This document shows positions 55,507 to 58,660 of a DNA stretch of 58,660 nucleotides, in pieces. The notes beneath the pieces were generated by a model, which saw only the letters and a program-made list of their open reading frames with translations, did no database searches and was not told the origin of the DNA. Both the position numbers and the translations under genes were made by a program. The DNA is taken from contig PMAT01000093.1 of the NCBI GenBank assembly GCA_003152695.1, forward strand, positions 66,001-124,660. The letters run 5' to 3'. Source of the stretch: Acidobacteriaceae bacterium. GTDB taxonomy: Bacteria; Acidobacteriota; Terriglobia; Terriglobales; Acidobacteriaceae. Each line of letters opens with the position of its first letter. Position 1 is the stretch's first letter.

Positions 55507-55806
55507 ATGGCACACGCATTGAGGCGCCATCCACGCTCGCGTAAGCAGGAACGGTTGGAGGCCAGAGTAACTCCGGACCAGAAGCGATTGATCGAACGTG
55601 CCGCTGAGCTGCGGGGCACGACGATTACGGAATTTGTGGTGGTGAGTGCGCTACAGGCTGCGGCCAACACAATTAAAGATTTCGAGACGCTAACGATCCG
55701 GGATGAGGCCCGCGAAGTTTTCATCCGTGCGGTCCTCAATCCTCCTGCTCCGAACCAAGCTGCTCGTGCCGCTGCTGCGCGCTACCGAGCACAAATGGGA
55801 TTGTAA
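55507..55806 (+). CDS. TacA-type (DUF1778) antitoxin
   Basis: 99 residues; GGAGGAGG lies about six bases upstream. An N-terminal ribbon-helix-helix (RLEARVTPDQKRLIERAAEL, RGTTITEFVVVSALQAA) and a toxin-binding tail (FETLTIRDEAREVFIRAVLNPP), exactly the DUF1778 layout. It neutralises the acetyltransferase encoded next and should repress the operon through the repeats upstream. Confidence 0.92.
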   Translation: MAHALRRHPRSRKQERLEARVTPDQKRLIERAAELRGTTITEFVVVSALQAAANTIKDFETLTIRDEAREVFIRAVLNPPAPNQAARAAAARYRAQMGL

Positions 55807-56337
55807 TTGGCTGACGAAAGTCAGGGACCCAAATTCGTCATTGAGCCGCTCGGGGCCAAACATGACCGGGCGGCTTTTTCTTGCGGTAGCAAAGAACTGG
55901 ATTCGTACCTGCAAAAGCAAGCGGGGCAAGACTTGAAAAAACGAGTGGCGGTCCCGTTTGTAATCACCCCTGATCACAGGACGATTGCAGGTTTTTACAC
56001 GCTTTCGCAGTACGCCATTGATCTGGGAAGTGTTCCGGAGGAGGTCGCCAAACGGCTCCCCAAGTATCCAATAGTGTCGGCCACGCTGCTCGGACGTCTT
56101 GCGGTAAGTAGCGATTTTCGCGGCCGGGGATTGGGGGAGCGATTGCTGATGGACGCTTTGCATCGTGCCCTCGATTCGAGCCAACAGATTGCATCCGCTG
56201 CCGTGGTGGTAGACGCGAAGGATGAACCAGCGATCACGTTCTACACGAAGTATGGCTTCATCGAACTTCCGGGGGGAAGCAAGCGCCTTTTCCTGCCAAT
56301 GGGAACTATCGAACAGCTCTTTGCGAGGGGCGAGTGA
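55807..56337 (+). CDS. TacT-type GNAT acetyltransferase toxin
   Basis: 176 residues from TTG 55807, the codon directly after the antitoxin stop. The GNAT fold is typical of TacT: FSCGSKELDSYLQKQAGQDL, TIAGFYTLSQYAIDL, the acetyl-CoA loop DFRGRGLGERLL, and the catalytic Tyr near FYTKYGFIELPG. Family members acetylate aminoacyl-tRNA and stop translation. Appears intact. Confidence 0.93.
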   Translation: MADESQGPKFVIEPLGAKHDRAAFSCGSKELDSYLQKQAGQDLKKRVAVPFVITPDHRTIAGFYTLSQYAIDLGSVPEEVAKRLPKYPIVSATLLGRLAVSSDFRGRGLGERLLMDALHRALDSSQQIASAAVVVDAKDEPAITFYTKYGFIELPGGSKRLFLPMGTIEQLFARGE

Positions 56338-56408: not shown

Positions 56409-57593
56409 TTAACCGAGAATCCGCCCCAGTTTCAATCCGCTCAACCCAGTGGCCTTTTCTTTTGCCACTCCCGCCGACATCAGCAGCACCTGAAACGTTT
56501 CACCCATGCCGGTGGGCGAAATCAAGTGTTTCAGTTGCAACGCCACCTTGGCGTGCTCTTGAGGGAGTTTGCAATCCTGAAATGCATCCGCGAATTGCGT
56601 ATCTTCGCCGATACCGAGGAGGAATTGCGACTGGGTAAGCAGTGCCACCGGATCGAGTCCGCGCTGCAAGCCTCTCTCGCGTATCGCCGTGAAGTTTACG
56701 TGGGCGGTGATGTCCTGCTCGCCCGGGGCTTCGTAGGGCGACGCGCTGGCGGTATGCTGGCGGTAGCTCATGATGGTGTCGCGATGGCGTCCCGCCAGTT
56801 GCTCCTCGCGCGTGTAGCCGTAGTCGATCACGACAAGGAAGCCGCGCTTACCGCGAAATGCCTCCGCGATGCGTTCCATCCATTCCAATGCCACTAGCGT
56901 GGCTTCCACGCGTTCGCTCTCTTCCGGATGAATGCTGTAGCGGTCGAGAAACTCGGCTTCGGATCTGGTTGGCGGAACGAACGTCTCCACGAATTTCCCG
57001 TTCTCCAGGCCAATCCGCAACGCGCCGCGATAGTCCACCACTTCGACCGAAAGTGCATCGAAGAACTCGTTGCCAAAGACGATAATGTTTTCGCCCGCGC
57101 TCGAAGCCGCCGCTTCGAGCGACTCGAAGACTCCCGCTCTTTCCGCCGCGATGTGCTCGGCCAGCCGTTCCTGCAATCGATCGCGCAAATGCGCCGACTG
57201 CTCCACCAGCGCATAACGGAGAGCGCGCGCGAATTCCGGGAACTGCTTCGCCGACCAATCCAGCACATCGCGCGCGAACAGGCCGCGTCCGGGTCCCAGT
57301 TCGATGACGTCGATGCGCCGCGGAGAATCCAGTGCGCGCCACATCTCCTCGAACTGCCGCGCCAGCAGGCGCCCAAAGACGGCATGAACGTCGCTCGAAG
57401 TATAAAAGTCTCCGGCTTTGCCGAATTGCTCGCGTGAGCGCGAATAGTAGCCTAGCTCGGGCTCGTAGAGGCACATCTGCATGTAGCGTGAGAACGGAAT
57501 TGGGCCGTGGCCGCGAATCTCGTCGGCAATACGCTGGCGCAGGTGCGATTCGCCGCCAGCGCCGCTCTCCGGCCGGTTGGGGCTGATGGTCAC
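56409..57593 (-). CDS. SAM-dependent methyltransferase, MidA/NDUFAF7 family
   Basis: 394 residues from GTG 57593, overlapping the upstream stop by four bases (GTGA). ELGPGRGLFARDVLD is the SAM site (about 100), preceded by IPFSRYMQMCLYEPELGYYS, the DUF185 hallmark, and followed by VFGNEFFDALSVEVV and LVVIDYGYTREEQL. In eukaryotes it methylates an arginine of complex I subunit NDUFS2; the bacterial substrate is not established. No complex I gene is near. Confidence 0.9.
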   Translation of the reverse strand: MTISPNRPESGAGGESHLRQRIADEIRGHGPIPFSRYMQMCLYEPELGYYSRSREQFGKAGDFYTSSDVHAVFGRLLARQFEEMWRALDSPRRIDVIELGPGRGLFARDVLDWSAKQFPEFARALRYALVEQSAHLRDRLQERLAEHIAAERAGVFESLEAAASSAGENIIVFGNEFFDALSVEVVDYRGALRIGLENGKFVETFVPPTRSEAEFLDRYSIHPEESERVEATLVALEWMERIAEAFRGKRGFLVVIDYGYTREEQLAGRHRDTIMSYRQHTASASPYEAPGEQDITAHVNFTAIRERGLQRGLDPVALLTQSQFLLGIGEDTQFADAFQDCKLPQEHAKVALQLKHLISPTGMGETFQVLLMSAGVAKEKATGLSGLKLGRILG

Positions 57594-57895
57594 AGCTTGC
57601 CTTCGCGCTCCATCTGCTGGTTCTCTTTGCGGTGCTGCGGCGTGCGCAGGAACATCTCCACCAGGTAATCGTGCAGGCAGTCGAAGAGCTGGCGCTGAAA
57701 GGCCCACTCGAATTGCGGGTCGTCCAGATCGCGGGGATGCAGCTCGAAGTAATAGGTGTGGACCGGCGGGTCGCTAAAGCGCGGCCGGATGATCACCTCC
57801 ACCGCTTCGCCCTTGCGGCGCGCGTCGAACTCCACCAGGGGATGCTCGTACAGCCGCAACTGCTCCCGCACCCGTTCCAGGCGATCGGAGGTCAT
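57590..57895 (-). CDS. Conserved hypothetical, coupled to MidA-type gene
   Basis: 101 residues. Begins MTSDRLERVREQLRLYEHPL, then an alpha/beta core (VEVIIRPRFSDPPVHTYYFELHPRDL, FEWAFQRQLFDCLHDYLVEMF) and a charged tail. No signal peptide. The overlap with the methyltransferase start implies joint translation. I do not know the family; a role together with the methyltransferase is an inference from coupling. Confidence 0.75.
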   Translation of the reverse strand: MTSDRLERVREQLRLYEHPLVEFDARRKGEAVEVIIRPRFSDPPVHTYYFELHPRDLDDPQFEWAFQRQLFDCLHDYLVEMFLRTPQHRKENQQMEREGKL

Positions 57896-58196
57896 CGGGC
57901 GATTGTAGCCGACGGCAGCCGAGCGTGCAGGTAATCCGCGGTGAGGGTAGTTAGCAGATTGGTCGAGCCGACACCCCCGAAAATCGGCTTCCGTTCAGCG
58001 CCGTGAGAGACCCAATGGCTGCGCATTCCCCCCGTTCACTGCGCACCTGCTTCACTCCTGGGAGTGAGGCGCGACACAGCGCCGCAGCGGCCTTCGGCGC
58101 GACAATCATGGATGAGGCGGCGCGATGGGGTGTTGTCTCTTGCTCATCTTTCTCCTTTGCCCATCGCGCTGCCTCGATTCCGAGGTGAATACCCAA
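57896..58196. other. Spacer of 301 bases between divergent genes
   Basis: No gene supported. It contains the divergent promoters of the hypothetical gene and of the radical SAM gene, but I cannot place them. GAGGTGA at 58182-58188 is the ribosome site for the next gene. Confidence 0.4.
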
Positions 58197-58660
58197 GTGA
58201 GCACTCAGACGTTGTCGCCAGAAGTTACTATCCCAAACTTCCCATCTAACCTGGATCGGCCGAAGAAGCCTTCTCCGACCAAGCGGCCCACTCTGCGCAT
58301 CCTGCAACCCGACGTGACTTACACCGGCTCGCCTATCCAGCCTCTGCAGAAAGGCTTGCCCAAGCAGACTGAGTCACTGTGTCCGGAATGCAATAAGGTC
58401 ATCCGGGCAGACATCTTCGCTGACGACGGCCAGGTGGTGATGGAAAAATCCTGCGCCCAGCATGGCAGCTTTCGCGACATCATCTTCAGCGACGTCGAAC
58501 TGTATCTCAAGATGGAGGAGTGGAACTTCGGCGACAATCTGGGCCTCGCCAATCCACAGATCGAAGGCGGAAAGGTATGTCCTGACGATTGCGGCCTGTG
58601 CGGCATGCACACCTCGCACACCGCGCTCGCCAACGTCGATCTCACCAACCGCTGCAACCT
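58197..58660 (+). CDS. Radical SAM protein, tetraether lipid synthase (Tes)-like, 3' end outside window
   Basis: Start GTG 58197 (GAGGTGA eight bases upstream); GTG 58185 and ATG 58125 are in-frame alternatives. The visible 154 residues include an N-terminal metal-binding part (ESLCPECNKVIRADIFADDG, VVMEKSCAQHGSFRDIIF), then CPDDCGLCGMHTSHTALANV, and the beginning of the radical SAM core at LTNRCNL. This order (CPxC, HG, CPxxCGxC, TNRCNL) is the pattern of Tes/GDGT synthase and its bacterial relatives, which couple lipid tails. The rest of the CxxxCxxC core is beyond the window edge. Confidence 0.8.
   Translation, partial: MSTQTLSPEVTIPNFPSNLDRPKKPSPTKRPTLRILQPDVTYTGSPIQPLQKGLPKQTESLCPECNKVIRADIFADDGQVVMEKSCAQHGSFRDIIFSDVELYLKMEEWNFGDNLGLANPQIEGGKVCPDDCGLCGMHTSHTALANVDLTNRCN

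Follow-up and report, generated by a model that had tools for sequence, protein, structure and literature searches.

The archaeal tetraether synthase Tes, or GDGT-MAS (MJ0619, here MjTes; 7TOL/7TOM; model NF045702), has been characterised in M. jannaschii, and its coupling of lipid tails has been shown (PMC9433317). The first-pass annotation of the DNA analysed here had treated MJ0619-type proteins as lacking lipid activity, which was mistaken, MJ0619 being this very synthase. The family has already been put forward, so far as a proposal, as the source of bacterial membrane-spanning lipid synthases (Zeng 2022; Halamka 2023); according to PMC11868695, bacterial Tes is unconfirmed and no bacterial homologue has yet been tested. 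Tes homologues are reported for Koribacter (42% identity), Solibacter (40%) and Edaphobacter aggregans (32%), the last of which makes some branched GDGT (brGDGT) with this single homologue (PMC8941075). S. usitatus, which makes brGDGT with iso-diabolic acid undetectable, carries two homologues of Tes as well as homologues of PlsAR and GrsA/B; condensation of diethers by Tes has been proposed for it (PMC10087280). Cultured members of subdivisions 1 and 3 contain abundant iso-diabolic acid, A. capsulatum makes it and forms no brGDGT at low oxygen, and Koribacter has tetraesters (PMC13274423). According to the same paper, Mss of Thermotogota and Bacillota, which has a Tes-like catalytic architecture, joins bacterial fatty acyl chains by the same coupling; the Bacillota Mss screen described there used >30% identity and E<=1e-30.

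The window, by which we mean the whole stretch of 58,660 nucleotides from an Acidobacteriaceae bacterium (G000:C100:66001-124660, from a contig of 138,533 bases), closes with the 5' part of a gene of this family, at a point where the contig has two Ns. A GTG at 58197 (+) opens a frame that runs to the window end and is already open from an ATG at 58125. The gene probably encodes a working bacterial member of the Tes family that gives a membrane-spanning lipid chain, as judged from sequence and by analogy with the archaeal enzyme. We call its type A and a second Tes-type enzyme of the same class type B. The features are as follows:

58197..58660 (+): 5' part of the Tes-type radical SAM gene (type A), continuing past the window; frame, profile and 7TOL matches
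58359..58487 (+): N-terminal rubredoxin/zinc-ribbon domain with CPEC (C9, C12 of MjTes) and CAQH (C33, H36); PF23545, residues 55-97, 4.1e-18, and MjTes alignment
58578..58610 (+): N-terminal auxiliary [Fe4S4] site CPDDCGLCxxH (C73, C77, C80, H83 of MjTes); 21/21 type A rows, 0/13 type B rows
58635..58660 (+): start of the radical SAM motif, VDLTNRCNL, first Cys at 58653-58655, the other two just past the gap (TCPVC)
57590..57895 (-): small frame of 101 aa, no Pfam family found; neighbour only
56409..57590 (-): MidA-type methyltransferase (PF02636, 3.3e-57), judged an incidental neighbour

The motifs CPEC (58380-58391), CAQHG (from 58452), CPDDCGLC (58578-58601) and LTNRCNL (up to 58660) can be read in the window frame in the order that the first-pass annotation had given. 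That annotation had also called the placement beside a MidA-type methyltransferase pair incidental. The placement does look incidental, the MidA-type gene adjoining type A in just three of six same-genus loci, for which reason it was rejected as a component of the system; the word "pair" is doubtful, as the second, small frame has no Pfam match. At 55507-56337 (+), a 99-aa frame is directly followed by a 176-aa acetyltransferase-like frame, an arrangement that by eye resembles a DUF1778/GNAT toxin-antitoxin unit.

The remainder of the gene lies past the two-N gap (L001:2564-3781), starts with TCPVCF and reaches a stop, so that the gene ends at G000:C100:125,880 (= L001:3781). The CX3CX2C motif spans the gap, with the first Cys before the NN and the remaining two in TCPVC after it; the radical SAM cysteines expected downstream of TNRCNL are thus present. 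In all five congeners examined, identical flanks are separated by one base at this site, and we therefore read the NN as an assembly gap and the CX3CX2C motif as complete. Owing to the gap, automatic searching finds the gene in this genome as two pieces, each below the family cut-off. Taken literally, two Ns within the radical SAM motif would shift the frame, and the gene would be broken in its host with no protein made. This is very improbable indeed: besides the single base in the congeners, the part after the gap has a dN/dS of 0.058-0.080 against four congeners (0.150 against genome G040), placing the gene under purifying selection, and the type B gene of the same genome (G000:C30:7073-9085, L010, minus strand, 670 aa) likewise has two Ns in its radical SAM region, at a site that spans 95 bases in two relatives, an indication of problems in the assembly. 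We infer that such breaks reflect difficulty in assembling conserved DNA. Of 20 further stretches of this genome, four contain any N, one of them being an all-N contig. An intein was also considered, since the NCBI intein-containing Tes model has its insert near the gap (residue 154 = profile 150; residue 160 = 611), and was not supported, given the one-base congener site and the fact that in relatives the interrupted B genes mostly extend to the end of a contig.

Scored as a full protein with X placed at the gap, the gene product reaches 573.9 bits with the Tes equivalog NF045702 (cut-off 450), with which the C-terminal piece alone scores 433.1 and the window piece alone 121.2 bits. By itself the window piece matches Pfam PF23545 (HMPTM zinc ribbon; 4.1e-18), the NCBIfam Tes model (4.5e-35) and 7TOL (6.8e-27), all far beyond chance. 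Residues 2-394 of the C-terminal piece match 7TOL at 2.6e-107, and the two pieces together cover nearly its whole length, bearing out the initial identification of a Tes-like radical SAM gene in an acidobacterium. The TrsS radical SAM (seleno)protein (NF045646) is likewise matched over most of its length, yet at 349.1 bits, under the cut-off of 490. In 14 control genomes, the Tes model at E<=1e-50 has matches in three, all archaea.

Aligned to MjTes, the window gene and 20 type A relatives (21 rows) without exception carry the ligands of four metal sites: the rubredoxin-type Fe site CX2C-X20-CX2H (C9, C12, C33, H36), the N-terminal FeS site (C73, C77, C80, H83), the radical SAM cluster (C98 ahead of the NN, C102 and C105 behind it; the relatives have this motif unbroken) and the C-terminal FeS site (C338, C455, C470 with the labile M439). 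The rubredoxin ligands, C73, C77, C80 and Met439 of MjTes are named in PMC9433317; we take H83 to be its "conserved histidine", and H83, C98, C338, C455 and C470 are put forward as MjTes ligands by our own assignment from motif and conservation. Type B has the N-terminal FeS site in 0/13 rows and keeps the remaining ligands. Among 79 named homologues (acidobacterial, other bacterial and archaeal), only 69-70 retain each N-terminal FeS ligand, so loss of the site is not confined to type B. The window gene thus shares with archaeal Tes its domain order, the ligands of all four metal sites, the labile Met439 and an equivalog score above the cut-off; it differs in its separate place in the tree and in its substrate, which in a bacterial host would be expected to be iso-branched acyl or alkyl chains instead of phytanyl ethers.

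The best 80 named-genome matches run from 97% down to 45% identity in acidobacteria-titled records and from 55% to 44% in Planctomycetota, Deltaproteobacteria, Nitrospirae and Thermoplasmatota/Methanomassiliicoccales. Among congeners, G006 matches at 97% over 405 residues and G002 at 99% over 330, its C-terminal end diverging. Genome G040, which we take to be that of Ca. Koribacter versatilis, carries a type A protein 74% identical over 394 residues. The window gene, from a different species, therefore very likely belongs to the orthologue group of the Koribacter homologue, and likewise of that of Solibacter usitatus (PMC8941075; PMC10087280). In a tree of 118 rows (quick method, midpoint root for drawing only; one of the 80 named loci left out for want of a suitable frame), it falls within a starred group of 40 acidobacterial rows; five more acidobacterial rows, of which one is titled Vicinamibacterales, are joined to it with support of 93-94. 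Another starred group, of 37 rows, holds MjTes and is archaea-titled throughout except for one "bacterium" bin, and types B and C (see below) make up a distant starred group, its branch being 1.35 long. Two acidobacteria-titled rows stand elsewhere, L088 with Planctomycetota and L119 beside B/C. Long branches meet in this tree (D with L080, B with L119), and the fork between the archaeal and the acidobacterial group is an open one, so that we claim no direction of gene transfer.

We surveyed 400 relatives from the class Terriglobia, calling type A at >=798 bits with profile A1 and type B with profile A2 at E<=1e-160. Type A, with its complete cofactor sites, is patchy (45/400, a count that leaves out nine weaker rows, two of type D in G008 and G242 and seven at 388-400 bits read as B). 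Type B is near-universal (343/400, of which a few may be C only, as profile A2 also catches the rarer C form at ~860 bits); full-length type B scores ~308-338 bits on the Tes model, under its cut-off. Type C is a third paralogue of ~660-670 aa (L170 in G144, family f9; L172 in G119, family f10) that adjoins B in the tree and is without the N-terminal FeS site. Type D is a form of ~525 aa (L161:9269-10849 in G008, 345 bits; L197:7346-8917 in G242) that has mostly lost this site, and its two copies share neighbours.

At the strict cut-off, type B is present in 33 of the 45 A carriers, leaving 12 without a full B; one of these, G002, retains a piece of B where a contig stops. Contig ends cut through the type B genes of G002, G005, G006, G007, G081, G163, G217, G328 and G391, several near profile positions 513-542, so that B can look absent. 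Across the whole set, replacement of B by A is weakly indicated (B in 33/45 A carriers versus 310/355 others, Fisher p 0.02); it is clear only in family f2, where, of 14 genomes, six carry A alone and four B alone; no genome has both, and the four with neither are all under 90% complete. In 13 of the 33 genomes having both, A and B lie <=12 kb apart: 12 genomes from eight genera of family f1, where B always precedes A in the same orientation, and G330 (family f12), in which the two are divergent. The other 20, including the host genome, have them on different contigs. Family f6 adds at least two more tandem A-B pairs (G442, G459).

Just downstream of A in G111 (L141:10884-12443), G119 (L143) and G330 (L196), which represent two families, lies a radical SAM/SPASM-type gene of ~500-550 aa, in G330 after an intervening 74-aa frame (neighbour genes were called by a codon-usage caller, which misses and shortens some genes). 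The G111 copy, the only one annotated, reaches no equivalog cut-off among the matches listed (25 families), and the gene is a candidate for another modification of the same lipid. Radical SAM families switch substrate easily. Together with the joint presence of A and B in 33 of 45 carriers, which suggests a division of labour, the downstream gene and this readiness to switch would suit an enzyme that keeps the Tes scaffold and performs a different chemistry on a lipid or other hydrophobic substrate, for instance an intramolecular cross-link as in Gms. We consider this improbable for type A, in which the C-terminal FeS site with Met439 is fully retained, the equivalog score holds over the full length, and the 12 carriers without a full B look as they should for a stand-in enzyme.

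Proteins of the PlsA/Ger type (PF09989), a type associated with the conversion of ester to ether lipids, occur in 151 of the 400 genomes. Their subtype S is mostly ~1,020-1,100 aa long, with two PF01869 stretches plus PF09989 in the two copies scanned. Of 18 S loci examined for gene order, 17 have a conserved gene of ~400-450 aa next after S, and the remaining one breaks off where its contig ends. S (profile A3, E<=1e-200) is present in 42/400 genomes. It accompanies type A: 22/45 A carriers have it versus 20/355 others (Fisher p 7e-13, per genome) and 15/24 genera with A versus 15/128 without (p 4e-7), by statistics that ignore common descent. By family, S is found in 9/25 A carriers of f1, 0/6 of f2 and 13/14 elsewhere. 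A second test covered 60 family f6 genomes outside the first 400, 34 with near-full-length A (among the matches listed) and 26 without A, the latter chosen at >=94% completeness; five genomes with A fragments were left out. Here S was found in 32/34 with A versus 1/26 without (p 2e-13, E<=1e-150, again ignoring common descent), and in 31/34 at 1e-200. The host genome has no S-type match at E<=1e-200 and thus falls outside the brGDGT genotype as defined by a Tes-like gene together with the PlsA/Ger-like two-gene operon. It carries an L-type PlsA/Ger-like protein (G000:C27:86283-89822; L205:6284-9823), longer than S and with two PF01869 stretches plus PF09989, at a locus that shares neighbours with G001. 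G040 and G055 are absent from the PF09989 matches of the 400-genome search. Against the reading of the window gene as a membrane-spanning lipid synthase count the 23 of 45 A carriers without the operon, the host included, and the 20 genomes, eight of them in family f7, with the operon and without A.

The distribution of the two types also bears on which of them does the general coupling of tails. Type B might do so, leaving A an accessory that makes a second bond or serves ether lipids only, as its co-occurrence with the ether operon would suggest. Genome G055, presumably that of A. capsulatum, has B and no A. Type B is in 343/400 genomes, and iso-diabolic acid, a product of A. capsulatum, is widespread in subdivisions 1 and 3 (PMC13274423). 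We nevertheless hold an accessory role to be rather unlikely: in family f2, A may replace B, and A has all Tes cofactor sites whereas B is without the N-terminal FeS site. This alternative overlaps both with our preferred reading of the window gene and with the reading of two distinct synthases given below, so that their probabilities are not exclusive of one another.

Returning to the window gene as a Tes-family synthase, we infer its substrate, chemistry and product by analogy with MjTes. SAM would give a 5'-deoxyadenosyl radical, which would abstract hydrogen at the terminal methyl group of a first lipid tail; an [Fe4S4] cluster, presumably the C-terminal cluster to which the labile methionine belongs, would hold the tail carbon, which would then be joined to the tail of a second lipid to give a membrane-spanning chain. 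In the host, the tails would most likely be iso-C15 and the product an iso-diabolic-type membrane-spanning lipid. Since its genome has A and B and no S operon, our best guess is an ester-linked form. Type A is not the general iso-diabolic acid enzyme, as most genomes of the class lack it, yet subdivisions 1 and 3 commonly contain iso-diabolic acid; nor is it strictly needed for brGDGT, of which E. aggregans makes some with only a 32%-identity homologue (PMC8941075).

The family as makers of bacterial membrane-spanning lipids and the pairing of Tes with PlsAR in one organism are already in print, and in the open-licence literature accessible to us we found no report of the A/B cofactor split or of an association of A with the operon across many genomes. 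New here are the genomic split into A and B in this class and the tendency of A to travel with the ether-lipid gene pair. Tentatively, and with somewhat less than even confidence, we propose that acidobacteria have two non-equivalent Tes-family synthases: B, without the N-terminal FeS site, would lead to ester-bound iso-diabolic lipids, and the complete A would couple ether or ether-bound chains, so that genomes with A and the PlsA/Ger-like operon would be the main brGDGT producers and those with A alone (the host, Koribacter) would make ester-only membrane-spanning lipids. Branched GDGTs are a main proxy for past soil and lake temperature, and knowledge of the organisms and enzymes that make them is incomplete. 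A genomic rule setting A plus the PlsA/Ger-like operon against B or A alone could separate likely makers of ether brGDGT from ester-only makers; it would be usable on metagenomes and could be checked in existing acidobacterial cultures. Our results suggest that type A together with the ether-lipid gene pair is a testable marker for the makers of these climate-proxy lipids.
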